A program made the position numbers and the translations under genes. Below, in pieces: positions 17,302-62,030 of a stretch of DNA of 64,000 nt. The stretch's first letter is position 1, and each line of letters opens with the position of its first letter. Origin of the DNA: Clavaria fumosa (lineage: Eukaryota > Basidiomycota > Agaricomycetes > Agaricales > Clavariaceae); the NCBI GenBank assembly GCA_951802425.1, contig OX637797.1:3720001-3784000 (forward strand), read 5' to 3'. The notes beneath the pieces are model-generated. The model made no database searches. It was not told the origin of the DNA and worked only from the letters and a program-made list of their open reading frames with translations.

Positions 17302-18775
17302 ACAAACAAAGGCAAATAAAGAATGCTAAAAATAAAAACTTGAAATTGAGCAGCCCTGTGGCTGGTCCCTCAGGAACAGGTTACCAATCAGGCATGGCTG
17401 CTTTTGGTAAGCTGCTATGACCATGGGAAAATTTTTGCATGGCTTGCAAAATATGACTTTTTATACACCAAAAAATCAGCAAAAATCAGGAGATTCCAAA
17501 TCTGGACACCCCACATTTGTATCTGCCTTGGTTCAGTGTCAATTTGCAAAATACACAGAAAATATTCATTTTACACAATTCTGCAGTACTCTGGCTTGAA
17601 AATGGATAGTAGAGGATACACACACTACCTGTAGACATATGGGAAGGGTGTGGATTAGTTTAACAACACACCCACCATCTCTGCCACCTCCCTGGAGTCC
17701 ATTACTAGGAATTAGGGTGTTATTGGCCTGGGAGCATGACCATTTGTCAGATTGCAAATTCCAGCCATCAGACTACATCTTATGACATCTAATACAACCA
17801 TGCAAAAGCCCATAATATTTGGTGCAGAACTACAGATTCCCCATGTCCATTTTCCCAAAGTTCTTAAAATATCTCCCCAGACAGCCCTTTATGTCAAATC
17901 ACATATTCCTGTTGTCTGATAGCTGACAATGTATGCATGAAAATATGTTCAAAGTTTGGTGAAGTTAGGCCAAGTTCTCAGGAAGATAGCTCAGAATATG
18001 TCTGTTGGAGTGCAAGGCAAGGTTATGCAAGTCATGTCCTTGTCTCTGCCTTCATGTTAAACTGTCCTCCAAAAGACACATTCTGAGCTATCTTCCTGAG
18101 AACTTGGCCTAACTTCACCAAACTTTGAACATATTTTCATGCATACATTGTCAGCTATCAGACAACAGGAATATGTGATTTGACATAAAGGGCTGTCTGG
18201 GGAGATATTTTAAGAACTTTGGGAAAATGGACATGGGGAATCTGTAGTTCTGCACCAAATATTATGGGCTTTTGCATGGTTGTATTAGATGTCATAAGAT
18301 GTAGTCTGATGGCTGGAATTTGCAATCTGACAAATGGTCATGCTCCCAGGCCAATAACACCCTAATTCCTAGTAATGGACTCCAGGGAGGTGGCAGAGAT
18401 GGTGGGTGTGTTGTTAAACTAATCCACACCCTTCCCATATGTCTACAGGTAGTGTGTGTATCCTCTACTATCCATTTTCAAGCCAGAGTACTGCAGAATT
18501 GTGTAAAATGAATATTTTCTGTGTATTTTGCAAATTGACACTGAACCAAGGCAGATACAAATGTGGGGTGTCCAGATTTGGAATCTCCTGATTTTTGCTG
18601 ATTTTTTGGTGTATAAAAAGTCATATTTTGCAAGCCATGCAAAAATTTTCCCATGGTCATAGCAGCTTACCAAAAGCAGCCATGCCTGATTGGTAACCTG
18701 TTCCTGAGGGACCAGCCACAGGGCTGCTCAATTTCAAGTTTTTATTTTTAGCATTCTTTATTTGCCTTTGTTTGT
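17302..18775. repeat. Near-perfect inverted repeat: arms about 702 bp, spacer about 70 bp
   Basis: 17302-18004 is the reverse complement of 18074-18775. Identical 76-residue translations from 17404-17634 (plus) and 18443-18673 (minus) show that the arms are exact over long stretches. One mismatch is visible beside the spacer (AGAATATGTCT versus AGAATGTGTCT). A transcript through it would form a hairpin of about 700 bp. Confidence 0.93.
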
Positions 18776-18893: not shown

Positions 18894-19175
18894 ATGCTGA
18901 TTTCATGCCAGTTTGGCTGGGATAATGTTCCTATCAGATTCCTAGGATTCCTATCAATTCCTAGGACTCCTATAGGACTCCTATCAGAATAGGTGGGGGA
19001 GTGTAAAGACCTCCCTTGGACGAACTCCCTTTATATGCTGTTCTGTTGTCCAAGGGAGGTCTTTACACTCCCCCACCTATTCTGATAGGAGTCCTATAGG
19101 AGTCCTAGGAATTGATAGGAATCCTAGGAATCTGATAGGAACATTATCCCAGCCAAACTGGCATGAAATCAGCAT
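18894..19175. repeat. Second palindrome: 128-bp arms, 26-bp spacer
   Basis: 18894-19021 is mirrored by 19048-19175 around a 26-bp spacer (19022-19047). Each arm contains the fold-back terminus plus GTAAAGACCTCCCTTGGAC. The right terminus of the fold-back element is therefore present twice head to head, suggesting a tandem-inverted insertion or a fused pair of ends. Confidence 0.9.
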
Positions 19176-19937: not shown

Positions 19938-21391
19938 TGCCTAGTTGGGACAGTCATCCAGAGTCTTAGTCATCCATCCATCCTAAAGGGGGATGAATTT
20001 CACAGGGAGACCATATCTAGAAATTATTACTTAAGCAGGAGTGCTTAGATAATTGTTTATCCCTGTTGTATCCCAAAGGGCAAAGCCCTCTAGAGCCAAA
20101 ATACCTTTTAGGGATCCAGAGAGCAAGCCAGAGCGACAAAATTGCCTAATTAGGAAGGTTTAAGCGGAGTTTGAACTTTAAAATCAAACCTTCGGTTTTG
20201 AAGACTCTTTCCAGACTGACTCAGAGGCCCACACACTGATTGGGAATACCTAATAATAGTTTTACTGTATCAGGCCAATGCACAGCCTCCTCTGAGTCAC
20301 TCCAGCACAGTCTAGACTGTTTTGGATAAACCCAAATAGGGGAAATGACTCCATCTGACTCATTCTGACTCATTCTCTCAAAAACTCGAGTTGGGGAGAG
20401 GATAAAAATAGTAAATACTTATATGGCAAGAGTACATGCCTTATGCGATTATCTGAATATTTTATTATGATTTTATATGCAATATTTGGCCATGTATCTC
20501 GAAATTACTGTATTTAGTAGATAGGCTTGAAACAATATAAATAGGCCACTGAAGGACATGTTCAGTAGCACCTACTTGACCCCAGAAACTGCCTGATCAC
20601 CTTAGTAAGCTGAAGCTAAGAGCCAGCATCACTCCATAAGGAGTTATGAATATATTTGTCCCACTGATGTCTGAATACCAGTGTGGACAAATAACTGATT
20701 ATCTCATCAATGCCTTAGGCTGGTGCGATGATTTGATTATGTAAGCGTAGCCAGGCTATAGGGCTAGTGACTGAGTATCTAGTCACGCCGAAAGCTTACG
20801 TAATGCATGTGCAACGAATATTTTCATGCTTAGGTAATTTTACTGTGTTGTAACTGATGTTTTACTTTGTATTACAGGTATTAGATATAAATGTTTTATA
20901 TCTAAGGAAGTAATAGGAATTAGGTTAAGGTGTAAGAGAGTGAAAGGGAGATAGGATAGAGAGGGTATCAGAGATTTAATGTTGGAAGGATCTCCTATCT
21001 CATTGGAGAGATATGAATATTGTCATAGTACAGTATTCATATGAATAGACTTAAGTATTTAATAACTCATTATTGGTTGAATATTAAAGCAAGGTGTAAG
21101 AGGATGAAATAGTCGAGATGACTATGGGGATCCTTTGGTCAATTACCCTTGTTTGAGATATTGATGCTTGAGTCACTATAGAATATTTCTATTTGCTGCC
21201 CACATTAGCAATGCCTTGTAGACAATATTAAGGTTATCTTAGTATCTGTTTACAAGAAGGTGTGCAACCAGAAGCTCAATTGGGACATTGAGCTTGCCTA
21301 GTAATAATATTTGAGGTTCCTATTAGGGTTAACTTTAGTTTCCCTTACTTAAATATTATTATTCACAGGTAGCAAACCTGGTTCCATAACA
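19938..21391 (+). repeat. Long LTR (about 1454 bp), probable solo LTR
   Basis: It begins TGCCTAGTTG after GTACC (19933-19937) and ends GGTTCCATAACA before GTACC (21392-21396), so it has TG...CA ends and a 5-bp duplication. A TATAAATAGG box lies near 20537. The 20780-21391 part is repeated in reverse at 62031-62642, which independently fixes the ATAACA end. Coding sequence (G5 protease) resumes right after it. The left end depends on the 5-bp match and is less certain than the right. Confidence 0.55.
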
Positions 21392-22085
21392 GTACCCATG
21401 CTTGCAGATTGCAGAGCTACCAAATGTTTTGTTTTGCCTGACTTTGCACCCTTGAAATTCTGTTCAACACTAACCTGCCCTATACAACTTAGGTTATTTG
21501 ATGGGTCTGTCACAGGACTGATCACCCAGGTGACTGACCAACAATTCCACTTCAAGGACAGCACAACGCATACCAAACGCTTCTATGTTACCCAACTCCA
21601 TTCAGATGTGAAGGTTGTACTCAGACCATTGTGGCTTCAGAAACACAACCCAGACATTGATTGGCCAATCCTTTCGATGTGATTCCACAATTCTGATACC
21701 TGACCACTGACAATGAAGCCCTTGCCTGCCATGGCCACCAATGCGACAAGGCCTGTGGGGTCTCACAACCCAACCACCAATGAACTCAGGGTCCTGAAGG
21801 AGCTTGCTCCTAAGGACTGGTCGACACTGAGCCAAGGACTACCCATGGGGACCACTGCAAATCCACCATTGGAGTCAAACCCCACTGCACCTGATAGCAA
21901 TTCCGCTATGTCGGGAACTTTGAACTCCACTACACAGGACTGGGAAAACCCACCTGAGGAGCCCTTGTCACCTTTTTCTAACATTGTTGCTGCTGATAAA
22001 ATTTCCCCCAACTCAAATTTACAGAGAACGGGGTAACAGGAAAATCCCACTGCCCTGTTACCTGAGTCAGCACCCACCAACATTT
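21392..22085 (+). pseudogene. G5: decayed gypsy protease region
   Basis: The frame from 21398 reads MLADCRATKCFVLPDFA, then PIQLRLFDGSVTGLI and a tail ending WLQKHNPDIDWP. This matches basidiomycete retropepsins, where the first motif is normally DSGA. Here the active-site triplet reads DCR, so it is dead. Downstream (21713-22036) is the proline/serine-rich linker that precedes RT. No RT follows because the older G2-type LTR begins at 22106. Confidence 0.6.
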
Positions 22086-22105
22086 AAATCTTGGACCCCG
22101 CCTGC

Positions 22106-22351
22106 TGTTAGGGCCTGTCCTGTCTCATAAATAATACTGAAGGTCGACTTGTTGGTGACCAGTCCTGGAAACTCGCTAAGACCAATCAACTGTTGAGCAC
22201 AGTCGATAATGCTTGGTCCCGGAAGGTTGCGAGGACGTCTGAGAAGATGTAAGAATGAGGAGAAACAAGTAAAGAAAAGGAAGACGTTGCTGGGAAGGTC
22301 GTGAAGTCGATAGATGAAGTGTAAAAAAGGGGAAAGGCAAGTTGAGAAGAG
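22106..22351 (-). repeat. Older G2-family LTR, part 1 (host of the G2 insertion)
   Basis: It starts TGTTAGGGCCTGTC like the G2 LTR but is more diverged. It is broken at 22351 by G2 and resumes at 32920-32996 after the AAGAG duplication. G2 therefore inserted into an older copy of its own LTR. Confidence 0.7.
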
Positions 22352-23750
22352 TGTTAGGGCCTGTCCCGTCTTGATAGTAGTGCCAGAGATCAACTTGTTG
22401 GTGACCTATGCTGGAAACTCGCTAAGACCAATCAACTGTAGAGCACAGTTGAGAATGCTCAGTCCCGGAAGGTCACAAAGACGTCTGAGAAGATGTAAGA
22501 CCGAAGAAAGACAAGTATAAAGGAGGAAGACGTTGTTAGGAAGGTCGCGAAGTCGGTAGACAAAGTGTAAAGGAGGAAATTGACAAGGAGGGGGGAAATG
22601 GGTGATGCTGAGAGGGTCGCGAAGTCGACCGACGAAGCGTAGAGAAGGAAAAAGACGAGGTGAAAGAAATAGACAATGTTGGAAGGGTTGTGGTGGTCGC
22701 GACGATATTGAGAAATGTGTCAGTGAAGGCGATGACTTTGCTAACCGACGAGTGAACCTGTAGGGTTCCAAGATCAGCACCAAGACGAATAATAAAGAAT
22801 ACTTAGATCGCGTGAGTTGTACGAACGCAGAGGGCAAGTTAGAACAGAGTAGAGTGTGTCTTGGCGATCTTGTGGTCACCAAGAGAGACAAGACCTATCA
22901 ATCGCGATGGTTCCAAGCTCAAAGGGCATACTAGCCTCAAGCTTAAACCAATGTGTGTCAATATCAAGTCTGGAGTACCATAAGTACATGCAAGACCTTA
23001 TATACATATGTAGAGAGAGTATAATGAAAAAGGGAAAGTACAGAGGTTGCCAGGCGACAAGACTATGGTAGTATGGGGTATGTTTAGTCATAAAGTGACT
23101 AGGCGCGTGTTCTACTAAGGTCGCGAGGGGTTAGGTATGCATAGGTAAGGTCGCGAAGATGACCTGTCACAGGTTGCGACCTAGTTTAATAAGTATATAC
23201 GTCGCTATAACTACGGAGGGATTCTCGGATCATAAGTAACATAATTATAGACGACTGAGGAGAAGAAGGGACGCATATTTGAAGTGTTCATACAGCTGAC
23301 CATTGGTGGCGCGTTTGAGTGTTAAGGTCGCAAGGTCATAAGAGTGATCACATGGGTGACGCTAGTGACGCAGGTGACCTACGGGCGAGTAGTCACGTGG
23401 GTAATGCTGGTAACACAAGTAACGGTCGTAACGCTGGTAACGTATTGGCGCTGATAGTGGTAGCGCTGGGGGTGCCACGCGGCAAGTCACGTGCTGGTGG
23501 AAGTAGACGTGTATCGGTGTGTCGCGCATAGGATTGGTGGGTCTGGGTGAAGTATGCGTGTAGGGTGAAGTATTAGGAAGCATCGCGAGTACAGCATGGT
23601 GGTTGCGGAGGAGGTTGGAGAGACTTCCGGAAGGAGACAGCGGGTCCCGGAAGTGTGTAGAGGGACTCGTGAGGTTGTAGAGGGTCATCGGGAAGCTCGT
23701 GGATGTGGGTGAAGTCAGCTTGGGCAAGGAAAAATGAATGGGTCCTGACA
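22352..23750 (-). repeat. 3' LTR of G2 (1399 bp)
   Basis: Bounded by TGTTAGGGCC and GGTCCTGACA. Differences from the 5' LTR are mostly transitions at CpG, plus length changes in a GGTAACGCT-type micro-repeat near 23400 and a short block near 23560-23600. CACGTG occurs near 23393 and 23488. ORFs inside it look like chance frames. Confidence 0.9.
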
Positions 23751-23765
23751 TTACCCCCCCTTCAA
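23751..23765 (-). other. Polypurine tract of G2
   Basis: The plus strand reads TTACCCCCCCTTC after the LTR, giving GAAGGGGGGGTAA on the element strand. The same tract is seen at 49200-49216 beside the G6 LTR. Confidence 0.75.
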
Positions 23766-23866
23766 GCCTCGAGCCCTGCGAGAGTGGAGGTCACGTGATG
23801 ATTAGTCAGCGCGATGTTTGTTGATCAAGTCATGACACCCGAAATTTTTCTCTAAGTCAAACCACC

Positions 23867-25915
23867 ATGGTCTCCGCTTTCATCAAACAACACGAAACCG
23901 AAACCGATAACGACCAAAACAAGGTCATGCGCGAAATGCGCTTATACAATGAAACGGAACCCGGCCTTAACCTGGGAATCCTGGAAGACGCGCTGGCCCG
24001 TCAAAAGGCCGAACAGGCGCGATGTGCGTGTTCTCGGGAAGAAGTCGAGAAGCGCAAAAAGAAGAGAAGTAGGGTTGCGGATCCCAACGAAACGAGGGAC
24101 AACGTCGCGGGCCCAAGTTGGGCAGAAGAGAATGTCGTGGAGACAGTGGACCTGACGTCCGCGGAGTTCTCAAAGGCTTGGAAGAAGATTGGGTCAGTTA
24201 AGGAGAACAAGGATTGGAATGAGAGGGAACGGGAGGTGTGTAATAATAATTCTTGTTCCTATTCATTCTTCTAACTGTTGGATTGTAGGATTGTGGGAAT
24301 TGCGTGTCGAAGGGCCGACAGTGCGAATGCAGTACTGCCGGCAAGTGTCGTCAGTGTGCGGAGGACCACGGAAAATGTTCGTGGGTCCAAGATTTTCGTC
24401 GGTGGCGTGTCAAGGCCCAGCTTGGGTGGGATGATGCCCGGGTGGACGAGGCGTTGAAGCGCATCGACGGGCCAGAAACGGGGGGCACAGGGGCGCCCAA
24501 GGTCGCGAGCCAAGTGGGGGGAAAACTTCATGCCCTATCGATTCCGGGGACCCCAACGCAAGCAGGGCGCGGAAAATGAGTGAGGGCGCGGAAAACGAGT
24601 GAGGGCAAGGTCGCAGTTGCCGCCGGGTCCTTCGACGTCGAAGAGGCGAGTCGGGAGTCCATCGGAGGAGGAAACGGAGACGGAGGAAGACACACCGGTG
24701 CGTCTAACGAACGTCGCAAAGGTTCGTGTGGAGAAGGTGCGGGTTCTGGCAACCCTGGGAGAGAAGGGGCGGCTGCTTCGGAAGGTGATGGACTGTGAGG
24801 AAGAAGTCAAGATTCTTCAAGGGCGATTGGATGTAAGGGCGACGAAGGAGCGCTGGTTGGAAGGGCGGCTGAAAAAGAGTGAGGAGGAGGTGAGGAGGTT
24901 GAAGCAGGTCGTGACGACAGTGCGGGCGAAGGTGACGACCTCGTCACAAGAGTCTGGGATGAGAGAGGAGTTGGAGAGGGAACTCATGACGTTGAGGCAG
25001 CAGGTCGTGGAGCCCTCGAGGAAGATGTTGTGGTTGGAGAAATCTAACAGGGAAGTGGAGTTAGAGGGAGAGCTGGTGGCGGCAAGACGCGAGTTGGAGG
25101 AGGTGCGGAAAAGCGCAAAAGGTGAGTTTTCTTTGTGTTCAGTGACTTGTTACCGAACTCGCGAGTTTTTAGGGAAGGGCAAGGAAGTAGAGGGGGTGAA
25201 GGAGAGATCGTCGAAGGTGCCTGCGTCGAAGATTGTGGACCCAGCGGTTGCGGAATTGAGAGTACGGGCAGAGGGAGCAGAGAGGGAGTTTGAGGCTTTG
25301 CATGGGGAGTGGCAGGGTGAGCAATTATCTTGTCATCTCTCTAGTTGGTGAATTGACATTTCTATCTTGTCTAGACCAAGAGGTGAAGTTGAGGGAAGTA
25401 CAACGAGACTTGAAAAAGTTGCGGGAAGGGGAAAAAGGTGAGTTTTGTGGTCGTGAGTACGAAATAACTAAGTCGTATTCGCAGAGTTGTTGCCGGCGGT
25501 AGAGGAGACGCGTAAGGAGTTCGAGGAGTTGAGGAGTGAAATAGCGGCAATGAGGAGAGAGGAACAAGGTAAGTGGCTTGGTGAATTATCAGGGTATCAT
25601 TACTGATGATTCTTGTAGCTCTTCATGGCATGCTGGAGGCTGTTACGGAAGAACGCGACGCTGCCCGTGCTCGTGGGCGGCGTGTCCTTGAAACGGTATA
25701 CTTCAGTTTCGACAACTTGTGGAGAAGAATCGAGAAGTCACAAGAAAAGTCGAAGTTGTATAGCTGGGTGACGGCGGAGCAATTCCGTCTGAAACGAGAT
25801 TGCGAGGTTCCTGCGAGTGGACGGGGAGGGACGATTGATTGAGGAAGAGGAGGGAAGACAGGCAGAGGAGAGGAGTCCCAGTGTGGAGGAGGTAGACGAG
25901 GCGAAAGGGTCGTGA
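23867..25915 (+). pseudogene. G2 antisense gene: Cys-rich, coiled-coil protein with five introns
   Basis: The ATG at 23867 sits in a strong fungal context (CACCATGG), 117 bp from the LTR. Exons by GT-AG and phase: 23867-24235, 24289-25121, 25173-25316, 25375-25437, 25485-25568, 25619 to 25842 (or 25915 in another frame). The introns are 47-58 nt and all preserve phase. Exon 2 opens with the cysteine block DCGNCVSKGRQC, then CRQCAEDHGKC; the rest is long acidic/basic coiled coil. A 19-bp tandem duplication (24567-24604) shifts the frame and one copy contains TGA; further TGAs lie near the end. It is convergent with pol. Its function is unknown; it may bind metal and nucleic acid. I know of no named family. 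Confidence 0.7.
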
Positions 25916-25939
25916 AAAGGGAAGGAGAAAGCTCGCGAC

Positions 25940-26040
25940 TAGTAAATAAAAATTTTCTTGTTGTATTTTATTGTGTATATATGAATTGCTGTGAAATCCG
26001 AAGTGAGAAAGTGAAGAAAAAACGAGAAAGAGGCGAGGAA
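25940..26040. terminator. AT-rich convergent 3' ends of G2 pol and antisense gene
   Basis: Between the antisense gene end and the pol stop (26043) is an AT-rich stretch with TAAATAAAAATTTTC and TTGTATTTTATTG. The two transcription units converge here, so it probably holds polyadenylation signals for both. No experimental mark can be read from sequence. Confidence 0.3.
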
Positions 26041-26042
26041 AA

Positions 26043-29000
26043 TTATTGAGTTGCGCGAGTCGCACGAGGTTTTTCCGGGTAGGTCGCATGGAAGTCCTTG
26101 AGGAGTTCCTTCGAGCCGGAAAGTGATTCTATTGGTTCCCAGGTGTCATCCTCGGGTCCGTAACCTTCCCATCGTACGAGGTAAAGCACTTTCCTACCCC
26201 TCCTTCGAGAATCTAGTATGTTGGCAACTTCATAATGTTGTTTGCCGTTGACCTTGATAGGGGGCGGGGGTTGCTGTTGCCGCTGGGGGAAAGGGTTGTC
26301 GTAGACCCTTTCGAGTAATGAAACATGGAAAACGTCATGAATTTCTCGCATCGATTTTGGTAACTGGAGACGATATGCGTGAGTCAAAACTTTCGCAAGT
26401 ATGGGGAAAGGTCTGGCTCGTTTCGAGTCCAATTTCTTCATCGGTCTCTTCGTCTTCACATTCCGCAAGTCTAACCACACCTTCGTTCCTTCTTTCCAGT
26501 CCGGTGTAACCTCTCTCTTCCTGTCTGCAAAGCGCGAGTAGGCCTCGTTCGCGACCCTGAGTTGATCTCGTAAGTGCTGATGGAGTGTCTTGAGATCGGT
26601 CGCGACCATGTGGGCTTCATGCGCGGGTATCCCTTCGAGGGAAATCGTGAGTCTTGGGTGGTATCCCTTGTTCGCGAAGAATGGGGAGACACCAGTTGCG
26701 CTGTGGGGGGTGTTGTTGTATACGAACTTGGCGAGCGGAAGTTGGTGGGTCCAGTCGTCCTGCTGGTAGTTCATATAGATTTGTATATATTGTTCCAAGA
26801 TCTGGTTGACTCATTCAGTTTGTCCGTCGGTCTCGGGGTGATAGGCTGTGGAGAGATTGGAAGTAATATCCAGAGCCTGACATAATGAAGACCAAAACTT
26901 AGAAACGAATAATCTTCCTCTATCCGACACTATATCCGCGGGTAGTCCATGCTTTGAGAAGACGTGGGTGACAAAATGTTGAGCTAACTCTTTCGCGGTG
27001 TCGGTAGTGTTGGTGGAGATAAAGATTGCTTGTTTCATAAGTCGGCAGACGACAACGAGAATCGAGTCAAAGGTTGCGGAGAGGGGGAGGGCTTCGATAT
27101 GGTCCATCGAAATCGAAGACCAAGGTCGCTCGCCTATGGGCAAGGGCTTGAGGAGTCCGTAGGGTTTGTGCCGGACGGGTTTTGCCCTTGCGCAGGTGTG
27201 ACAACCATGGACGTAGATGGTTACGTCCTTTCGGAGTCCTGGCCAGAAAAACAACCTATTTATTAGTTGGGTTGTCTTCCTTATACCTGGATGTCCTTGT
27301 AGTTTATGGTCGTGGTTGGAGCATAGGATATCGAATCGGAGAGAGTTGTGGTCGGGGACATATATTTTGCCATTTCGAAGTAATAGTGAACCGTCGGGCG
27401 AGAGCAAGAATGCTTTGTCGCGACCTTGCAAAGCGCCCCTTGATTTCTTGGAGAAGTAGGAGTCGCGAGGGGTGTGTCGAATTCGCGAAATCAGGGCTTC
27501 TTTGTTGAGGATGATGGCTGCTCGAAGTAATTCCAGTGGTATCGCGACCTTATTGTTTTGTGCATTGGTTGCGGGTTGGTCGGATTTCTTTGGGTAGACG
27601 TCGGGTCGTCGTGTGAGGGCATCTGGCTTTGCGCCTAGCTTTCCTGCTCGATAATGAATTACATAGTCGAAACTGGAAAGGTACTCTGCCCAGCGGGCTT
27701 GTTGATGGCTGAGTTGCTTCGTGGTGGTGAAATAACGTAAGTTATTGTGGTCTGAAAAGACCTGAATTTGGTATCGCGCGCCTTCGAGGTACGCTCTCCA
27801 TTGCTTTAACGCATTGTGTATCGCGAGGAGCTCTTTGTCATAAATGTCGTAGTTGAGCTCTGCGGTGATCATTGTACGTGCGTGGAAAGCGATGGGACGT
27901 AGCTCGTTAGTCGCGGGATCGGTATGAGAGAGAATGGCCGCTATCGTGTAGTCGGAAGCGTCGCATTCGAGGGTAATGGGGTGATCGGGGTCATAATGCC
28001 GGAGGACGGGAGCTTCGGTAAAGGCTTGTTTGAGGATATCGAAGACTTCTTGGCATCGTGGGCTCCACTTTCAAGGTGTATCCTTGCGGAGGAGTCGCGT
28101 AAGTGGAATAACAATGCTGGAATAGTTATCTATGAATCTTCGATAGAAATTAGCAAAGCCTAAAAAGCTCTGAAGGTCGCAGATCTTCATGGGTATGGGC
28201 CAACTTAGAATGGCCTGTATTTTTGAAGGATCCATGGCAATTCCGTCGGGGGACACTATAACTTCAAGGTATTCGACCGTCATGGTGTGGAAATCACACT
28301 TCTCGGGTCACGTGTGTAAGTCTGCCTTGCGTAGACGTCGTAGGACCTCTCGGATGTGGTCACGATGCTGTTCGAGGTTGTCTGAGTAGATTAAGATCTC
28401 GTCGAGGTAGACTACTACATTGACGTCGACCAGATCGTGAAAGATATCGTTCATAAGGTGCTGAAAGGTCGCGGGTGCGTTCGTGAGTCCAAATGGCATG
28501 ACAAGATATTCGAACGCGCCGTAGCGAGTGCGGAACGCAGTTTTCCACTCGTCTCCTTCAGCTATCCTCATGTTGTTATACCCAACACGGAGGTCGATCT
28601 TCAAGTAGATTTTGGCCAAGCATAATTGGTCGACGAGGGTCTCAATTCAAGGAATAGGGTAGCGATTTTTGCAGGTGATTTTGTTGAGACCTCGATAGTT
28701 GACGCAGAGGCGAAGGCTTCCATCTTTCTTCTTCGCAAAGAGTACCAGTGCACCTGCGGGGGATTTCGACAGCCGAATGAAGCCTTTGTCCAACATGTCG
28801 TCCAAATAATCTTTCAACGTTTTTAACTCCACTTCTGACATGTTGTACAGCTTCCCGTGAGGAGGTGTTTCGCCTTCCTCAAGTTCAATTTGGTGGTCAT
28901 AGTCGCAGTGCGGAGGTAATTCCCGGGCTAGATCTTCAGAAAAGATGTCTAGGAAGTTGTGATACTCGTGCGGGACTGTTTCTTCGGGTTTCGGAGGGGG

Positions 29001-29700
29001 TTGAATGGTTGCGGAACTCGTGAGTATGGATTCGTCGTCATAGGGGTTGCTCGCGGGTTGGAAGTATAGGAGACCTATAAATTCTCCTTGTTGTTCCAAT
29101 TGACGAAGCGTGGTGGCCTTGACCAATTGAACTCGTGGGGGTTTAGAGGGTTTCGGTATCGAGTTCGTGAGGTCAGGGGAAGGTTTACTCGGGGGTTTCG
29201 CGTCCAGAAGAGTGAGAGGGATAGTCGCGGAGTGGGCTGTCTGTCCGAAACTGAAAGTGAGGTTGGTCCAATCGATCCTAGGGTTCCAGATTCGCAACCA
29301 ATCGAGCCCTAGAACCACAGGAGTGAGAGGATGAGTTTTAGTGACAAGGAACTTAATGGATTGGATAGTATCATCGGGGAATTTCGTATTAGCGTGGACG
29401 TAGTGGGTTATATTGGAGCTGGAGGAACTTCCGTCGAAGTATTGAAGTGGTAGAGGTTGCGAAAGTGGCATTAAGAGGTTTGGACGGGAGTTCGCAAGGG
29501 TGAAATCGATGAAATTCATTGATGCGCCGCAATCAACAAGAGTATTTAAGGGAATCAAGCTGAAATCTGGTATTTGTGTCTTTATGAGGAAGGATTGGGA
29601 AGACTGGGAAGCAATGGGAGTATTAGAAAGGTCGCGAGGAAATTGAGGGGAAGAGGAACTAGTCGCGGCCCGCGCGAGTATGGGGGTTGGATTGTCGCGA
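26043..29700 (-). pseudogene. G2 pol: protease, RT, RNase H, integrase, chromodomain with TGA stops
   Basis: All parts share one frame. Protease has [10 protein letters not shown] and [11 protein letters not shown] (about 29550-29280). RT has [23 protein letters not shown] and [10 protein letters not shown], where the second catalytic Asp of YLDD is Glu. RNase H reads ECDASDYTIAA and YDKELLAI. Integrase has a CHTCARAK finger, SMDHIE, VSDRGRLF and YHPETDGQTE. Near the end are a GPF-like part and a chromodomain (YEVANILD...YLVRWEGYGPEDDTWEP). TGA interrupts at 28647-28649, 28308-28310, 28071-28073 and 26811-26813; at least three fall where the family has Arg (PIP-R-IETLVD, HT-R-PEKC, TE-R-VNQ). 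The final stop is at 26043-26045. Confidence 0.88.
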
Positions 29701-29851
29701 CTCAGAGTTCCCCTGGAAGCTCCTGAGTCGCTTCCTCGTTTAACCCTTCGTGCGGGTCATCCACATCCTCTTCTACCTCTTCCTCAACTTCGTACTCTTC
29801 CTGGATCTCTTCCTCTCCTTCCTCTAGCGTGAAGACGGCTCGTCCGGCTAA

Positions 29852-31483
29852 TCATCGATCGGGGCATGCAACACTGTAATGTCCCAGTTTCCCACATCTC
29901 AAACAAAGATTTCCCTGATGACGATGTTCTCGTTCCTCATTGCTGAGGGGGACGTAGGGCGGATTCGGATTCGGATTCGGCTGATGGGGTGGATTAGCGG
30001 GTCGCGGCGAAGTTGCGGGATTCCCTGTGGCTGGTCGGAGCGTTGTAGGATTATTGCCAGTGGCTGGATAAGGTTGCAACGTCGTCTGGTAGTTGCGATT
30101 TCCGCCTTGTTGAGCCAAGGGGCGATTTCCACCTTGTTGAACAGGGGGACGGGGAGCAGGAGGGTTAGCGTGGAATTGAGTTCTGCATGGCTAAATCGTG
30201 AAGTTCCTGATATGTCGTAGGTCGCGGAATGACTTTCATGGCCTCTTTAATACGTGTGGACATCGAGCGGTAGAGCTCTGATTGCAAGGCGGCCGAATTC
30301 CAGTTGGATTCGAAAGCGAAGGACTTGAAACGGATGATGTGGTTCGAAAACCGTTCGTTTTCGCCCATCTGCAACAAGCAAAGGTTCTGGTCGGCTTCAA
30401 TCTGTGTGTTGACCACTCCAAACATCCCCCCAAACTTGCAGATGAATCCTTCCCAGGAATGTAGAGCCGGGTGTTCGGTGTTGAATTGAAGGAGGGAGGT
30501 GTAGTGGCTTTGCGCGGTGTCCGTGAGGTAAGAGGCAGTGAAAGTAACCCTCTTGTGATCTCCTTGGAAGGTTACGGGCTTGGCAAAGAAAGTCATTAGG
30601 CATTCCATGACGAAAGGTTTCCACTTGCGTTGGTCACAACCATTGAACGGTTCGGGACGTCTGGTGTCGAGCTTGGATTCTCGAGTGAAGGCGTCTTGGG
30701 CCGATGGTCCTTCAGAGGGAGGGGCCTGATAATAGTAGTGGTGATGGTGGGTTCCAGGTGCCTCATCTCGAAGTGCGGTGGCAGGGTGTGGGGGCATAGG
30801 GGGGACCGGAGGGACCTGCGGAGCTTCAGTCTGTGACGGAGGGCGAGATGCTGGTCACGTCTCCATCTGGGGTACTGGTCGCGCTTCCGGTTGTGGAATA
30901 CGGAAGGGCTCGACCAGAATCTCGAGGCGAGGGGCAGGTTGAAGCATTGCTTCGGTCCCTATAGGGTCGCAAGGGAACACCCTACTTGGAGTAGTGGCTG
31001 GCTGCATCCACATAGGTCGGGAGGAGTCGGGACTCTGCGGTCGGTAGTCCCTGGATACTGACGCTGACTCTCGTATAACCGGTTCTGTGGGTTAGCTCGG
31101 AATCCATCCATTAATCATACCAATGCCTCGTAGAGATTTGTCGTCTCAATGAGATACGCTAATTCTTCATCAAGAGTTCCGGTTTCGTATTGGCGGCGAG
31201 TATTGTTGAGAATTTGGTAAGTACGGTGGCGAGGGCGGTCGAAGCGCGGGTAGCCGAGCTGCTCCACAAGGGTCTCGGCTTCTTCGCGCAGGGACGAGGC
31301 GTGGCTAGGTGCGATTTGGGCGGGTTCTTCGGGCTGTGATTGAACGACGGATGCGGGTTGTTCTTGTACGGTGGTAGGTGGCTCACGAGTAGTCTCCAAG
31401 ACCATTGGAGTGATTGCGCGGCTACCTGTGCGTGTCTGGAAGTGATGAGTGGTTGGTTGGGGAGGAGTGTGACTGGAAGACAT
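29852..31483 (-). pseudogene. G2 gag with zinc knuckle, frame-broken
   Basis: An ATG at 31483 opens a 122-codon pre-core region ending in TGA 31115-31117 (ALV-stop-LMD, Arg expected). The Gag core follows at about 30797-30165 (FNGCDQRKWKPFVMECLM, FGVVNTQIEADQNL). A frame change leads to the knuckle CLRCGKLGHYSVAC, then TGA 29852-29854. Normal Gag would package the RNA. The unit has at least two TGAs and one frameshift. Confidence 0.8.
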
Positions 31484-31539
31484 AATGGTTTGTGTTATCC
31501 AGGTGTTGAGTGGTGGGGTGAGGGGGAGACTTGATATTA

Positions 31540-32919
31540 TGTTAGGGCCTGTCCCATCTCAATAGTAGTGCTGGAGATCGACTTGTTGGTGACCTATGCT
31601 GGAAACTCGCTAAGACCAATCAACTGTAGAGCACAGTCGAGAATGCTCGGTCCCGGAAGGTCATGAAGACGTCTGAGAAGATGTAAGACCGAAGAAAGAC
31701 AAGTATAAAGGAGGAAGACGTTGTTAGGAAGGTCACGAAGTCGGTAGACGAAGCGTAAAGGAGGAAATTGACAAGGAGGGGGGAAATGGGTGATGCTGAG
31801 AGGGTCGCGAAGTTGACCGATGAAGCGTAGAGAAGGAAAAAGACGAGGTGAAAGAAATAGACAATGTTGGAAGGGTCGTGGTGGTCGCGACGATATTGAG
31901 AAATGTGTCGGTGAAGGCGATGACTTTGCTAACCGACGAGTGAACCTGTAGGGTTCCAAGATCAGCACCAAGATGAATAATAAAGAATACTTAGATCGCG
32001 CGAGTTGTATGAACGCAGAGGGCAAGTTAGAACAGAGTAGAGTGTGTCTTGGCGATCTTGTGGTCACCAAGAGAGACAAGACCTATCAATCGCGATGGTT
32101 CCAAGCTCAAAGGGTGTACTAGCCTCAAGCTTAAACCAATGTGCGTCAATATCAAGTCTGGAGTACCATAAGTACATGCAAGACCTTATATACGTACGTA
32201 GAGAGAGTATAACAAAAAAGGGAAAGTACAGAGGTCGCCAGGCGACAAGACTATGGTAGTACTGGGTATGTTTAGTCATAAAGTGACTAGGCGCGTGTTC
32301 TACTAAGGTCGCGAGGGGTTAGGTATGCATAGGTAAGGTCGCGAAGATGACCTGTCACGGGTCGCGACCTAGTTTAATAAGTATATACGTCACTATAACT
32401 ACGGAGGGATTCTCAGATCATAAGTAATGTAATTATAGATGACTGAGGAGAAGAAGGGACACATATTTGAAGTGTTCATACAGCTGACCGTTGGTGGCGC
32501 GTTTGAGTGTTAAGGTCGCGAGGTCATAAGAGCGATCACATGGGTGACGCTAGTGACGCAGGTGACCTACGGGCGAGTAGTCACGTGGGTAATGCTGGTA
32601 ACGCTGGTAACGTATTGGCGCTGATAGTGGTAGCACCGGGGGTGCCGCGTGGCAAGTCACGTGCTGGTGGAAGTAGACGTGTATCGGTGTGTCGCGCATA
32701 GGATTGGTGGGTCCGGGTGAAGTATTAGGAAGCATCGCGAGTACAGCATGGTGGTCGCGAGTGTCGTGTGAGCGCAGAGGAGGTTGGAGAGACTTCCGGA
32801 AGGAGACAGCAGGTCCCGGAAGTGTGTAGAGGGACTCGCGAGGTTGTAGAGGGTCATCGGGAAGCTCGTGGATGTGGGTGAAGTCGGCTTGGGCAAGGAA
32901 AAATGAATGGGTCCTGACA
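31540..32919 (-). repeat. 5' LTR of G2 (1380 bp)
   Basis: Same termini as 22352-23750. A TATA-like TTATATA lies near 32190 on the opposite strand. It is followed by AAGAG at 32920-32924 and the remainder of the older LTR. Confidence 0.9.
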
Positions 32920-32996
32920 AAGAGTAGTTAACGCTGAGAAGATTGCGAAGCCGGCCAACTAAGTGTAGTAAGAGAAATAGACAAGGTGGGAGAAAC
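32920..32996 (-). repeat. Older G2-family LTR, part 2
   Basis: AAGAG then TAGTTAACGCTGAGAAG, matching the LTR region around 22600 (GATGCTGAGAGGGTCGCGAAG). It is the continuation of 22106-22351 beyond G2, and is cut at 32997 by the G3 LTR. Confidence 0.65.
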
Positions 32997-33250
32997 TGTC
33001 ATGGGAAGAATGACAAAGTCGATTATGTAACCAAGGCAAACTACAACAAAGGCAACACGACTAGGACAACCGCAACACTAGAGACAGGAAAACCAAAGTA
33101 CCAATGGCAATCAAGAGCGAGGAGATGCTCCTCGCTGTTGATGGCCATTGGGGATTGGTTTATGGAATCGAAGCACCTAAGTAATACAAAAACCAATCCG
33201 AAACCAGAAACTATGTATTACGTCAAAAGGAAACTTCGACGTTCGGGCCA

Positions 33251-33740
33251 CTAGACCCAGAGCCTATCCTCATCCACCGATTGAGAAGGAGACTCCCCAG
33301 CCTGGACATACTCACCCTCGACGTCTGGTAAAGCCACCGTAGCCATCGCAGGGGCTGACGGAGGGGATGAGGGCGGGGGAGTGGAGTTCCACCCAGAGTA
33401 GGAGGTGGGAGAAGTCCACCGAGTAGGGGGAGTGCAATCCCATCCTGCAAGAAAGTGATCAGCAAAGTGAATGAGAAATGGAAGAAAAGACGGTACTGTG
33501 GGGGTCCTCGAGTAGGTCACAGATAAGGTTGCCTGGGCGGACGACCCAAGGGCATCCCGACGCAAAATGGCCAGGATGGCCACAAGTGTAGCATCGTCGA
33601 GCAATGGTAAGAATGAGGAGGTTGTCGGCTCCCCTCTGAACGGCCCAGTGGAAGGCCGCGCAAGAGAGTACGAGGGGGGTGACTTGTTGGAAGACATTGG
33701 AGGAGGGGAGGAAGTTAAGTTTGTGAGGGCCCCAGCACAT
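33251..33740 (-). CDS. Antisense spliced CCHC-knuckle ORF inside the G3 5' LTR
   Basis: The ATG at 33740-33738 opens exon 1 (33740-33497). An intron of 52 nt (33496-33445, GTACCG...TGCTGAT...TTGCAG) joins in phase to exon 2 (33444-33251, TAG stop), giving 145 aa. Exon 1 encodes RRCYTCGHPGHFASGCPWVV, a perfect CX2CX4HX4C knuckle; exon 2 is S/P/T-rich with an acidic tail. A minus-strand TATATAAGG lies about 40 bp upstream. The product may bind RNA. The same gene model holds in the 3' LTR. The intron is predicted from sequence, and function is unknown. Confidence 0.55.
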
Positions 33741-33777
33741 AACAAAGGATGGGGAAGAGAAGCGGTACAGGCCCCCC

Positions 33778-33784
33778 TTATATA
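33778..33784 (-). promoter_or_regulatory. TATA box for the G3 antisense ORF (5' LTR)
   Basis: The minus strand reads GTATATAAGGGGGCCTG, the same core (TATATAAGGGG) as the sense TATA at 34161. It sits about 40 bp from the antisense ATG, so the leader would be very short. Confidence 0.45.
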
Positions 33785-34160
33785 CTACAAGGGACGGATA
33801 AGAGCCGGAAGATAAGTGAGGCGGTGGGAAAGAACCGTCACACAGGAGCATATGATGGGTGAAGGAGCATGTGGAGATAAGCCGTGCCATGTGGAAGACT
33901 GCGGAGCAGCACATGGGCCGATAAGCGAAAGACGATGACGTCCAAGATAAGAGTGTAGGGCAGCATTCGGCAAGCTGCGGGCTGCGTGGCCCCACAAGGG
34001 CAGCTGCGTCGAAGAGCAGTAGCAGGCAGCTGTGTCGAAGAGCAGTAGCAGGCAGCTGCGGACTGAGCAGGCTTGCGGGAGAATATGCCGCAGTAGATGG
34101 ATAGCATCCTTGGGCTGCGGACGATGGACTGCGCCGCAGGAACCCGCAGCACCCCTGAGG

Positions 34161-34167
34161 TATATAA
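34161..34167 (+). promoter_or_regulatory. TATA box for G3 gag-pol (5' LTR)
   Basis: The plus strand reads GAGGTATATAAGGGGTGCAG inside U3. Transcription would start near 34190 and run through the rest of the LTR into gag. The equivalent in the 3' LTR is at 40657-40663. Confidence 0.55.
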
Positions 34168-34365
34168 GGGGTGCAGTGACATGGGAAACCCCTCAGCGTT
34201 GTTCACTTGTCCCTTATCACCTTATCGTACTTTGGTGAAATCACACTGGCTTTCCCTACTGCCGACGAGAGATACCCCCTCTCCTCCTGGCCCGAAGTAG
34301 CAACTACGCCAACCTCCGGACGGATCTACCCGACGCTGACTCAGCGACGAACGCAGATCACATGA

Positions 34366-34998
34366 CTCACACACCACCTGACTGAGTTCAGTCATTCTAT
34401 TTGCGTCGATATCCTTGGACGCGACCACCCCGACCGCCAAGCCCTTGAGCACGCATTCGCACGAGGAATAGCCAATCTCAGGCAACGAGTCATCGAAGCC
34501 TCCGACTCCGAGTACAGAGCCAGACCCACCCTACTTCGCTCCTTCCTAGGTCCCAGAAGACCCAGCGACAGAGTAATTTCCCAATTTGACCCAATCGACC
34601 AGACGGCGTTCGATCCTCTCATTTCGGCACTTGGGACTAACATAATCCCGGCACCCGATCACCTGACAGAAAGCACCTCCGAGCCTTTGGCCCCACTTCC
34701 TGTAACACCTGAACAACACTCTACGGAACAAGAGGAGACAACCGAGGAGTCAGAAAGACCAGACCAAGAAAGACCAGACCGACCATTGCCACCCTCGAGA
34801 GACGAGGCACATGGAATTGCAATAGAATTTGGAGACGGAATAACTCTCCCACACGTCCACTGCAACCCACAAGACTATTGCCGAAAGGCGCGATTAACAG
34901 GCCTACGAGGAAGCCCGACAATTGGACGAGACCAATTAGGAAGAATTCAGAACATTAGCTTCGACTATATCTACGACGTGAATTACTCAGTGACATGA
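34366..34998 (+). CDS. G3 pre-gag open frame beginning in the LTR
   Basis: A frame open from just after TGA 34363-34365 runs about 210 codons across the LTR end and stops at TGA 34996-34998. That stop overlaps the gag start as ATGA. It reads like real protein (DILGRDHPDRQALEHAFARG, then DSEYRARPTLLRSFLG; acidic RPDQERPDRP later). It has no internal ATG in its first third, so it needs an upstream spliced start, readthrough or a non-AUG start. The LTR part is preserved in the 3' LTR at about 40888-41203. It may be a Gag N-terminal extension, comparable to the pre-core ORF of G2. Confidence 0.45.
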   Translation, partial: LTHHLTEFSHSICVDILGRDHPDRQALEHAFARGIANLRQRVIEASDSEYRARPTLLRSFLGPRRPSDRVISQFDPIDQTAFDPLISALGTNIIPAPDHLTESTSEPLAPLPVTPEQHSTEQEETTEESERPDQERPDRPLPPSRDEAHGIAIEFGDGITLPHVHCNPQDYCRKARLTGLRGSPTIGRDQLGRIQNISFDYIYDVNYSVT

Positions 34999-45409: not shown

Positions 45410-45665
45410 TACCAGATCCATAACAGATGTGCAATGGGGTTCAGGTGGTAGGTATGCATAAGGTGTGTTAGGGAAGGGCATTGCAAGTACAGCCTGGTGG
45501 TTGTGAGTGTCATGTAAGAGCAGGGAAGGTCGGAGAGGCTTCTGGAAGGGGACTGCAGGTTCCAGAAGTGTGTAAAGGGGCTCGCAAGGTTGTAGAAGGC
45601 TGTTGGGAGGTTCATAAGTGTCAGTAGAGTCTGCTTGGGTAAGGGAAAATGAATGGGTCCTGACA
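45410..45665 (-). repeat. Truncated G2-family LTR (one end)
   Basis: From about 45437 to GGGTCCTGACA at 45655-45665 it follows the last 250 bp of the G2 LTR (GCAAGTACAGCCTGGTGG and CTGCTTGGGTAAGGGAAAA blocks) but is CpG-depleted. It therefore derives from an older insertion. Confidence 0.65.
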
Positions 45666-49070: not shown

Positions 49071-49216
49071 TACATGTTGTTTGACGAAGGGAGAGACCAT
49101 GGTGGTTGGATTTAGAAAAAAAAAAAGGGTGTCGTGACCTGATCAACAAACATCACACTGACTAATTGTCGCATGACTTCCACTCTCACAGGGCTCGAGG
49201 CTTGAAGGGGGGGTAA
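49071..49216 (+). other. G2-type 3' internal tail with remnant start of the antisense gene
   Basis: Reverse complement of 23751-23880 in diverged form. It contains the polypurine tract (GGGGGGGTAA before the LTR), the TCACACTGACTAATTG-type spacer and, at 49100-49075 on the minus strand, an ATG followed by VSPFVKQH, matching MVSAFIKQH of the G2 antisense gene. Thus G6 once carried the same opposite-strand gene. Confidence 0.6.
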
Positions 49217-50652
49217 TGTCAGGACCCATTCATTTTTCCCTTGCCCAAACCGACTTTACCAGCACCTACGAGCCTCCCGACATCCCTCTACAACCTCGCG
49301 AACTCCTCTACATGCTTCCGGAACCCGCCATCCCCTTCCAGAAGCCTCCCCGACCTCCCCTGCGTTCACACGACACTCGCAACCATCATACTATACTCGC
49401 GTCACCCCCCGCCACCTTACCCTATGCATGTCTACCACCTGAACCTGCCAAATCGATGTGCGACATGCAGTTATGCAATCTTCCTCAGCCGGCACATGAC
49501 TTGCTGCGCGGCACCACTGGTGCCACTAGCATTACCCACGTGACTTCCCGCCCAAGGTCACCTGCGTCACCACCACCACTCATGTGACCACTCTTGGACC
49601 TCACAACCTTAACGATGAAACACACTGCCAGTGGCCAGTTGAGCACTACTTCAAATTATGCTTCCTTTCTTCTCCCCAGTCATCTATAACTATGATACTT
49701 ATGACCAAAGCACCTCTTTGTAGTTATAGTTACCCATATGATTATTTAACTAAGTCGTGACCCATGACTGGTCAGGTTCATGACCTTACTTATGTTTCCC
49801 TTACCCCCACAACCTTAGTAGAATATGCACATGGTCACTTTATGACTAGCTATACCCCATACTACTATAGTTCTGTCGCTTGGTGACCTCTGTACTTTTC
49901 CTTTTCCATTATACTCTCTGTACATACATATATAAAGTCTCACATGTACTTACAGTACTCTAGACTTGATATTGACACACTTTGGTTTAAGCTTGAGGCT
50001 ATCATGCCCTTTGAGCTTGGAACCACCATGATTGATAGGTCTTGTCTCACTTGGTGACCTCAACAACACCAAGACACACTCTGCTTTATTCTAACTCATT
50101 CTCTGTGCTCGTATAAACTCGCACACCTAAGTATTCTCTCTCATTCGTCTTGGTACTGATTCTTCGAACCCTACAGGTTCTCTCGTTGGTCGGCAAAGTC
50201 ATTGCCTTCACCAACACACCTCTTAACACTGCCATGACTACCTGCAACTCTCTCAACATCATCTATTTCCCCCTCTTCATCTATTTCTTTCTCTACACTT
50301 CATCGGTCAACTCCACAACCTCCTCAGCAATACCTGTTTCCCCCAATTTGTCTATTTCTCCTTTACGCTTCGTCAGTCGACTTTGCGACCTTCTCAGTGT
50401 TACCTATTTCTCTCAACTCGTCCTTTTCCCTCTCTACACTTCGTCTACCAACTTTGCAACCTTCTCAGCGATGTCTCCCTCCTCTCCACTTGCCTCCCCT
50501 CATTCTCACATCTTCTCAGACATCCTCGCGATCTTCCGGGACCAAGCATTATCAACTGTGCTCAACAGTTGATTGGTCTTAGTGAGTTTCCAGGACCAGT
50601 CACCAACAAGTCGACCTTTGGTATTACTTACAAGACGGGACAGGCCCTAACA
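49217..50652 (+). repeat. G2-family LTR in plus orientation (3' LTR of G6)
   Basis: It runs from TGTCAGGACCC to CAGGCCCTAACA, 1436 bp, the reverse complement of the G2 LTR type. Many former CpGs read TpG/CpA. It sits inside G7: the sequence right after it (AGAGCCTCC) is G1-type protease sequence. Confidence 0.8.
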
Positions 50653-59065: not shown

Positions 59066-59084
59066 GCCTTAGCTACTGACCCCC

Positions 59085-59396
59085 ATGGTCTGTCCCAACC
59101 CAGTAGTAGTCCACAGGTTGGTCACTCCGAATACAATTCCAAATCGTACCATCTCCCCACCTCCTTCAGTAGAGATCGACGGAGACTTAGAGCATGAAAT
59201 CTCTGAAGTGCTCGACTCCAAGATCAACAAACGCTGCACCTGCAAACTCCTATACCTGGTGCGGTGGTCCGGATACGAAGGAACTGATGAGGAAACATCC
59301 TGGCTTCCTGCTACAGAACTTGTTCATGCCTCCAAGGCCATTTCGGATTTCCACCAAGCTTATCCGAACAAGCCCGGACCTCTCAATACCCTCTAG
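59085..59396 (+). pseudogene. G4 pol C-terminus with chromodomain
   Basis: The frame begins in the linker before the domain (VHRLVTPNTIPNRTISPPPS) and continues through HEISEVLDSKINKRCTCKLL, YLVRWSGYEGTDEETSWLPA and FHQAYPNKPG to a stop. Aromatic cage positions (E-I-S-E-V-L start, YLVRW, SW) are kept. It targets integration in chromoviruses. All upstream domains are absent, so it is a remnant. Confidence 0.85.
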
Positions 59397-60889: not shown

Positions 60890-61207
60890 GGTCAAGGGCA
60901 GGGAGGCTGGCTGGGCCCTGCTCCGGGTGTGCTCAGGTTGTGCGACATTGAGGTTTTTTTAAATAAAAAATAAAAATAAAAAAATAAAAAAATAAAAAAA
61001 TAAAAGAATAGGGATTGCCCGTGCTAGGGGCTAGTGATGATGGTAGCAGGTTAAAGAAGAGAAAAAAATTGGTGTATGATGCATGCGGCCTTTTGACCCC
61101 CAAAATTTTTTCGGACTCCGCTTGACACACTGCGAAACTCTGACGCTAACTTGTTATGGGAGCCACATGTTCATGCGGACTTTGGCCACAGGGTCTCAGG
61201 GGTTTGA

Positions 61208-61224
61208 CCCTAAGAGGGGGATAC
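61208..61224 (+). other. Polypurine tract of G4
   Basis: CTAAGAGGGGGATAC directly before TGTTACGACC at 61225. Confidence 0.7.
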
Positions 61225-61955: not shown

Positions 61956-61961
61956 AAGGCA

Positions 61962-62030
61962 GTATACTTACATCCAGCTACTGCTGACTATACTAGTATA
62001 CTTACATCCAGCTACTGTTGACTATACTAG
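61962..62030. repeat. 34-bp tandem duplication
   Basis: TATACTTACATCCAGCTACTG(C/T)TGACTATACTAG occurs twice in a row, immediately left of the LTR starting at 62031 (motif given in two parts because of its length: TATACTTACATCCAGC and TGACTATACTAG). Confidence 0.8.

Follow-up and report, generated by a model that had tools for sequence, protein, structure and literature searches.

Antisense accessory genes of LTR elements

Accessory genes antisense to the main reading frames of long terminal repeat (LTR) elements have been described in Boty as well as in several families of plants, their function being unknown (PMC7264820). The plant genes of the antisense additional open reading frame (ORF) type, or aORF-3R, share with the gene reported here their place, their orientation and their presence in most copies of the element, and that of Grande has its own promoter; a possible nuclear or DNA-binding role has been considered for them, as we propose below (PMC7264820, PMC11963269). 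The brtn gene of Boty from Botrytis cinerea (Ascomycota) is likewise a fungal antisense accessory gene situated between pol and the 3′ LTR (PMC7264820). In a further system that bears comparison, the VANC proteins of the Arabidopsis VANDAL elements, each family has its own protein and a short motif accumulated in its own copies (PMC5735166, PMC10398659). Here we describe a gene of this kind, hereinafter gene A, in the chromovirus G2 of the basidiomycete Clavaria fumosa. It lies in a window of 64,000 nucleotides (GenBank assembly GCA_951802425.1, contig OX637797.1, positions 3,720,001 to 3,784,000, forward strand; window coordinates are used throughout), inside a 48.8-Mb genome of 17 contigs from which its relatives were drawn.

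Literature searches for accessory genes, antisense ones included, of fungal LTR elements showed none for a basidiomycete element among the papers listed, which is no proof of absence. The word antisense does not occur in the available portion of the survey "LTR Retrotransposons in Fungi" (PMC3248453), and the title of the Boty paper appears among the references of PMC8365987.

A six-exon gene model between pol and the 3′ LTR

Gene A occupies 23867-25952 of the plus strand and runs opposite to gag-pol. A distance of 115 bp separates its start codon from the 3′ LTR (22107-23751, minus strand), and its stop lies about 90 bp from that of pol, which ends at 26043 on the minus strand. It thus has the position that defines aORF-3R genes, in agreement with the place and orientation given by the first-pass annotation. 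The model comprises six exons and five GT-AG introns. Exon 1 (23867-24235) opens with CACCATGG and ends in phase 0; intron 1 (24236-24288) shows a CTAAC-type branch sequence before its acceptor; exon 2 (24289-25121) carries a cysteine (Cys) block at 24289-24381, a basic stretch and the start of a coiled coil. Thereafter come intron 2 (25122-25172), exon 3 (25173-25316), intron 3 (25317-25374), exon 4 (25375-25437), intron 4 (25438-25484), exon 5 (25485-25568), intron 5 (25569-25618) and exon 6 (25619 to about 25952). The start sequence, the Cys block beginning at 24289 and the five short phase-keeping introns of 47-58 nt that had been noticed earlier are all present, the introns measuring 53, 51, 58, 47 and 50 nt in phases 0, 1, 1, 1 and 1, respectively.

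Copies of gene A were retrieved from the genome in two sets of 20 stretches each, the first 10 kb and the second 2.6 kb long. Intron conservation was followed in 21 aligned copies, namely that of the window and the 20 of the 10-kb set, with 11 of the set being near-identical non-autonomous copies. The GT..AG borders of introns 1 to 5 are kept in 19, 21, 21, 18 and 9 of these 21, respectively, with the loss at intron 5 coming mostly from the 11 non-autonomous copies, which are unaligned there.

The window copy is itself decayed. Its frame is broken twice, by a tandem duplication in exon 2 that is missing from six other aligned copies and by a small deletion in exon 6 with an early stop, and because of these two frame shifts it cannot encode the whole protein. 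The annotation had closed the gene at 25915; its start and exon structure stand, while that stop is a decayed CpG, past which three relatives (L009, L011 and L024) read to a stop equivalent to about 25951. These three amount to 595-606 codons when read through the two or three in-frame stops that each contains, and none of the 21 spliced copies is uninterrupted. Many stops and residue losses across the copies resemble CpG-type transitions, by which Arg codons turn into a stop or into codons for Cys, Trp, His or Gln, and CpG-directed decay seems to be acting on these elements.

Selection on the gene A protein

The ratio of nonsynonymous to synonymous differences (pN/pS), pooled over copies and with CpG-type changes removed, is 0.42 in exon 1, 0.18 in the Cys block, 0.34 in the rest of exon 2 and 0.40 in exons 3-6, as against 0.78-2.76 in shifted frames across the gene. 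Pol gives 0.12; gene A is conserved at the protein level in the manner of other element proteins, if more weakly than pol outside the Cys block. The block is held by 38 of 41 sequences; among 19 representatives of less than 93% identity its pN/pS is 0.24 (0.19 without CpG-type changes) and falls below 1 in 171/171 pairs, with shifted frames at 1.11 and 1.52. Hence, the check on selection that had been called for speaks against neutrality, and the comparison of copies gives a clear signal of purifying selection on the protein. Moreover, exons 3-6 are constrained in the frame dictated by the introns, which offers independent support for the splicing model. We regard it as near certain that gene A is a real gene, and from the copies we strongly infer that it is spliced.

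In some elements the gene has diverged far beyond pol. The synonymous divergence of L024 is 0.66 in the Cys exon (against L009) and 0.12 in pol (against L010), and for L013 the values are 0.16 (Cys exon), 0.70 (exons 3-6) and 0.10 (pol). This suggests that gene A cassettes may have been exchanged between elements, or that the gene runs on a faster clock.

The encoded protein

The fungal Zn2Cys6 cluster (PF00172) has the consensus spacing C-x2-C-x6-C-x5-12-C-x2-C-x6-8-C, and the gene A block, C-x2-C-x6-C-x7-C-x2-C-x6-C, is zinc-cluster-like in this respect. The consensus is matched by 22 of 22 gene A sequences, the rows having been chosen partly by their Cys, and by 9 of 13 sequences of a second gene, gene B (see below), the other four lacking part of the block. 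All six Cys are invariant in the 22 aligned sequences, which were picked by a pattern in which four of these positions are set; a short relative outside this set (P0016) lacks the sixth. When the open pattern was run over all six frames of the window, it recovered gene A and one low-complexity place. Profile matches to PF00172 are sub-threshold in 5 of the 22 gene A members (best E 0.96; first member 7.9 bits) and in 8 of the 13 gene B members (best E 0.0026; P0002 16.5 bits), with no member of either reaching the gathering score of 21 bits. A typed 44-residue piece of gene B scores 21.5 bits over only 18 of the 39 profile positions. Pfam returned coiled-coil noise and no family above cut-off for the full gene A protein, and sequence searches of the PDB returned no zinc-cluster match.

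The Cys block is followed by a basic Ser/Arg-rich stretch and a long coiled coil; a coiled coil downstream of the zinc cluster is also the arrangement of Gal4-type dimers. In the predicted model, helices span residues 151-214 and 220-271 with a predicted local distance difference test score (pLDDT) mostly of 75-93, and the Cys block, modeled at low confidence, shows a short helix following each CxxC. Alignment of this model with VIA-align found no zinc-cluster chain among the seven chains passed by Foldseek, six of which were aligned, a result that excludes nothing. In the gene B model the Cys block is predicted to sit between two long helices. Accordingly, we call the block zinc-cluster-like and treat membership of the Zn2Cys6 family as putative.

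Two clades with different genes in one position

Searches with a 61-residue Cys query gave 150 matches, and 150 of 152 candidates were scored; in two chromodomain searches 150 of 1,348 and 150 of 1,321 candidates were scored, so that the counts below are lower bounds. Of the scored chromodomains, 94 resemble that of G2 by 68% or more and represent clade A, and 122 resemble that of G4, another element of the window, by 74% or more and represent clade B. Gene A is found antisense downstream within 5 kb of at least 75 of the 94 scored clade-A chromodomains (median distance 1,734 bp); one of the remainder has it upstream and 18 are without it inside 5 kb. Among 56 more distant scored chromodomains it occurs once antisense downstream (4.7 kb) and once upstream. 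Gene B is antisense downstream of at least 101 of the 122 scored clade-B chromodomains (median 1,016 bp), with two having it in the same orientation and 19 having none, and the next clade (28 scored chromodomains, 67-73%) has antisense gene B in 0/28. By nearest match at the scored places there are no crossed cases: antisense gene B is seen in 0/94 of clade A and antisense gene A in 0/122 of clade B. The search for an ORF in the same position thus bears out an accessory protein gene in most scored members of each lineage, which, if transcribed, is transcribed towards pol.

In G4, gene B (59996-60958, minus strand) is an apparently intronless ORF with six Cys and an in-frame stop inside the Cys block. 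It runs antisense to a pol whose C-terminus (59073-59393, plus strand) bears a chromodomain (PF00385, 29.9 bits; cut-off 25.1); the 3′ LTR of the element lies at 61210-62029 (plus strand, ends by inspection). The Cys ORF reported for G4 is hence in the same place and orientation as gene A. In a profile comparison of the two genes Cys aligned to Cys with a probability of 1.4% and E 0.036, the profiles being thin. Thus, G2 and G4 appear to carry different genes in the same place, and we assume homology neither way. In the elements G1 and G5 the LTR lies 12 and about 262 bp, respectively, from the end of pol, leaving too little space for an antisense gene, which argues that gene A is clade-specific. 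The earlier proposal of one gene shared across the gypsy lineages here therefore lacks support in that form; as far as the scored places show, the picture is rather of two clade-specific genes in one position.

The element G6 was said to keep the first codons of the gene: it keeps nine only (49075-49100, minus strand), following an LTR (49217-50652) and a leader like those of G2. That LTR piece and another of clade A at 45438-45665 face each other, with the nine codons beside one of them, and between the two pieces no gene A match beyond the nine codons was found.

Non-autonomous elements at 11 loci (L015-L022 and L026-L028) also have clade-A LTRs and the leader, together with the opening ~1,460 nt of gene A. 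They show no match to gypsy pol, and each is located no more than about 250 kb from a contig end. All 11 share a common stop just past the Cys and basic region, and the one tested (L016) has a copia-type gag ORF (PF14223, zinc knuckle). On contig C2, paired inverted copies of gene B stand about 1.7 kb apart near 1246-1249, 1322-1325 and 1389-1393 kb.

Beyond this genome, an exon-2 profile recovered three gene A relatives from the protein database, all on short ENA/JGI contigs, and a 600-residue query recovered one, also among the three; gene B has 13 protein-database relatives. No gene A match was found in viral contigs by tblastn.

Dispersed words that differ between the clades

Across G2 (22107-32919) TCGCGA occurs 30 times against 3.3 expected and is the top over-represented 6-mer among those seen at least eight times, with 7 against 0.28 in the 3′ LTR and 10 against 0.39 in the 5′ LTR. 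Scans made without prior choice of word ranked it first among 6-mers in the clade-A LTR and, under codon shuffling of clade-A pol, third (10 versus 2.3, 0/400), with CGCGAC first. It is the first-ranked LTR word in both LTRs of G2 and in L009, L010 and L025, and the second in the diverged L012. Under codon shuffling the pol of L010 has 10 against 2.2 (0/1,000), and an upstream frame of 559 codons in the same element 3 against 0.9; the spliced gene A of L009 has GTCGCG at 9 against 2.4 (0/1,000) and TCGCGA at 3 against 0.7 (23/1,000). The string AAGGTCGCGA has 1,143 exact sites in the genome, as compared to 270 for its reversed string. On contig C1, 22 of its 88 sites have a gene or chromodomain of clade A within 10 kb (4.3 expected) and 2 are near clade B (4.7 expected), and several of its other clusters there (near 141, 1,911 and 3,728 kb) coincide with clade-A LTRs.

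Clade B has a different word. An equally unprejudiced scan placed ACTCCG first in the pol of L050 (22 versus 6.0, 0/400); it ranks third in the LTR of L049 (4 versus 0.3) and occurs 5 times against 0.27 in the G4 LTR (0/500). Its counterpart string GACTCCGCTC has 269 exact sites in the genome against 69 for the reversed string, and on C1 10 of 29 sites are near clade B (1.6 expected) and 2 near clade A (1.4 expected). In the pol of the other clade neither word shows enrichment (1 versus 2.4; 0 versus 1.2). The word that scores best in LTR and pol jointly has a minimum z of 7.3 in clade A and 6.7 in clade B, as compared to 2.2 in G5, 2.6 in G1 and 4.0 in the copia element, all three without such a gene. 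Occurrences are spread over all codon frames, which together with the codon-shuffle control speaks against the word being a by-product of the amino-acid sequence. Classic CGG-N11-CCG sites are absent from the clade-A LTRs. In the most diverged LTR pair 6/10 TCGCGA sites are kept, as against 16% for words with one CpG.

The LTRs of the gene-free elements have top words of their own: CTTATC in that of G5 (32996-34710; 8 versus 0.7) and ACGTGA in that of G1 (604-908; 6 versus 0.3). The former resembles what we take to be a GATA site and the latter, like CACGTG, presumably a bHLH site; both are perhaps sites of host factors.

A candidate regulator of its own element family

We posit that the gene A protein may be a zinc-cluster-like regulator acting on its own element family, a proposal to which we give an even chance. 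Gene A would be transcribed from a promoter in the conserved leader or the LTR edge and spliced, yielding a nuclear, coiled-coil protein, probably a dimer, whose six cysteines would form a zinc cluster. This protein might recognize the dispersed word (G)GTCGCGA in the LTRs and pol of its family, acting in the manner of a transposable element-encoded anti-silencing or activating factor, and clade B would have an analogous pair in its own Cys6 protein and ACTCCG. From what is established about reverse transcription, antisense introns are not introns in the strand that is copied and should hence be neutral for retrotransposition; those of gene A would stay unspliced in the genomic RNA and for that reason persist. 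If so, the five antisense introns would be a natural record of the retrotransposition route.

Several results on the words weigh against this proposal. Some copies and parts are poor in them: TCGCGA is absent from the gag fragment of the window (0.3 expected), the broken frames of L024 and L025 show either none of it or a mild excess at most (0-3 per frame, with 0.55-0.96 expected), two non-autonomous internal parts have no TCGCGA and 2 GTCGCG against 0.3, and ACTCCG is absent from the gene B ORF of the window (1.1 expected). The LTR rank of TCGCGA is only fifth in L011, 18th in G6 and 169th in L015, and two further LTR pairs show no clear excess of kept sites (4/10 versus 23%, and 3/10 versus 29%). 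The words also show strand bias, with GTCGCG 10 times sense and 29 times antisense in G2 and ACTCCG 19 and 3 times in clade-B pol, and gene-free LTRs likewise repeat words, though their pol is not enriched. In view of all these results, recognition of the word by the antisense protein is something we only infer.

The 115-bp leader between the LTR and the start codon (23752-23866, plus strand) contains the polypurine tract of the element and is the presumed promoter or 5′ untranslated region (UTR) of gene A. It is of low divergence: the mean is 0.067 in the leader (10 copies, 45 pairs), as against 0.239 at the adjoining end of the LTR (33 pairs) and 0.314 over the initial 60 nt of exon 1, and the last 97 bp diverge by 10.4%, as compared to 22.2% for the Cys exon and 31.5% for intron 1 (18 copies). 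These alignments hold only copies with the exact CACCATGG, and pol is not on the same scale. The leader might instead be kept for reverse transcription or RNA packaging, through the polypurine tract and 3′ cis signals, rather than as a promoter. It has a G/C run beside the LTR and is also kept in the non-autonomous elements, which makes this a serious possibility, if somewhat short of even. However, a polypurine tract requires about 15 bp, the conservation reaches the start codon, and tract and promoter functions can coexist; the likeliest reading would combine the tract with a promoter or 5′ UTR serving gene A. A promoter scan of the leader gave little, its model being bacterial and unsuited to a fungus.

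An alternative is that host transcription factors bind at the dispersed words, or that composition or mutation bias produced them, with the protein serving in nuclear import of the pre-integration complex, packaging, Gag assembly or the like. G5 and G1 repeat CTTATC and ACGTGA/CACGTG in their LTRs without any antisense gene, the dispersed words show the strand bias noted above, and the antisense proteins of some plant elements are described as nuclear and of unknown role (PMC7264820). On the other hand, the top LTR words of G5 and G1 are unenriched in their pol (0 versus 1.1 and 3 versus 3.1 expected), whereas clades A and B each have one word that is enriched in LTR and pol alike, and the word differs between these two families of one host, a pattern that genome-wide mutation bias does not explain. 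We hold this alternative to be possible but doubtful. Of the three roles first suggested for the gene, regulator, packaging factor and antisense control, the family-specific word thus favors the first, a packaging role for the gene A protein is possible, and selection on the protein opposes control by antisense RNA alone.

Tentatively, and with the balance of our judgment against it, at least two chromovirus clades of this genome may each have a private antisense Cys-cluster protein together with a word of its own (GTCGCGA in clade A, ACTCCG in clade B) distributed over the LTR and even the coding sequence of pol, by which the protein would mark no family but its own, for anti-silencing or activation. 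If true, such private protein-word pairs would hint at the reason for the repeated appearance of antisense genes next to 3′ LTRs. A lineage-specific word accompanying the gene offers a concrete and cheap test of antisense protein function.

That gene A is a captured host gene hitchhiking without a role in the element appears improbable: introns are unusual in an LTR element and suggest a cellular origin at some time, but the gene keeps one place and one orientation in at least 75 of the 94 scored clade members, selection continues across diverged subfamilies, and no cellular relative was found, with no Pfam family above cut-off and the three database relatives lying on short contigs of unknown context. 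Less probable still is that the antisense transcript itself pairs with genomic RNA to tune silencing, the open frame being incidental, for while gene A and pol are convergent and antisense transcripts are discussed as regulators of LTR elements (PMC7264820), purifying selection in every exon group and the conserved Cys, introns and phases all speak for a protein.

Other features of G2 and its surroundings

The gag and pol genes of G2 run on the minus strand from 30854 down to 26043. The gag and upstream pol frames (28647-30854) have matched counterparts in relatives, and the 3′ part of pol (26043-28070) encodes RNase H, integrase, an SH3-like domain and a chromodomain (PF17917, PF17921, PF24626 and PF00385). 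The last of these, at the pol C-terminus, scores 54.9 bits against a cut-off of 25.1 and identifies G2 as a chromovirus. In a self-comparison of the window the 3′ LTR is 92.7% identical to the 5′ LTR (31540-32919, minus strand) over 1,416 aligned columns; hence, the insertion is not young. The start of the 3′ LTR (22107-22571) contains a tandem duplication with ~246-bp spacing and 82% identity between copies, which is lacking in the 5′ LTR. An inverted repeat of 615 bp, 98.5% identical, links 20780-21394 beside G2 with 62028-62642 directly after the G4 LTR. Two inverted repeats with 100% complementary arms, at 17302-18775 (arms 709 nt, spacer 56 nt) and 18894-19175 (arms 128 nt, spacer 26 nt), are either very young or assembly fold-backs. 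An Rfam search of 22000-33000 returned no match.

Comparison with known systems

HBZ is a nuclear protein with a role in the life cycle of its virus, a mammalian retrovirus, and has a bZIP instead of a Cys cluster. HBZ of HTLV-1 is, like gene A, encoded by an antisense gene at the 3′ LTR (PMC7264820, PMC11963269). With the fungal Zn2Cys6 factors (PF00172) gene A shares the Cys spacing and, in several members, a sub-threshold Pfam match, but it is far under the Pfam cut-off.

Among the systems considered, VANC would be the nearest working model for gene A by analogy. VANDALs are DNA transposons. As in that system, a family-specific motif has accumulated in the element's own copies, if weakly or not at all in some copies and parts. 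However, the VANC motifs are tandem repeats in non-coding DNA whose binding has been shown (PMC5735166), whereas the present words are not tandem repeats but are dispersed, pol coding sequence included, and their binding by the protein is presumptive. A literature search on anti-silencing by transposable elements found no such protein-motif system described for retrotransposons. Fungal DNA transposons are reported to carry TET/JBP enzymes against methylation, with no retrotransposon found to do so in the portion of that work available (PMC12730594); a motif-guided protein, if the proposal is true, would be another route to a similar end, countering methylation.

Unlike the plant aORF-3R genes, gene A belongs to fungal chromoviruses, has five introns and carries a Cys6 block where they have TRP28 or SMC domains. 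It is set apart further by the presence of a different gene in each of two clades of a single genome and by the family-specific dispersed words. In the available main text of the Retand paper neither "zinc finger" nor "intron" occurs (PMC11963269). On our best reading gene A belongs, as a fungal variant, with the antisense accessory ORFs already described, to which it would add introns, a Cys6 block and, to judge from the sequence, a family word.

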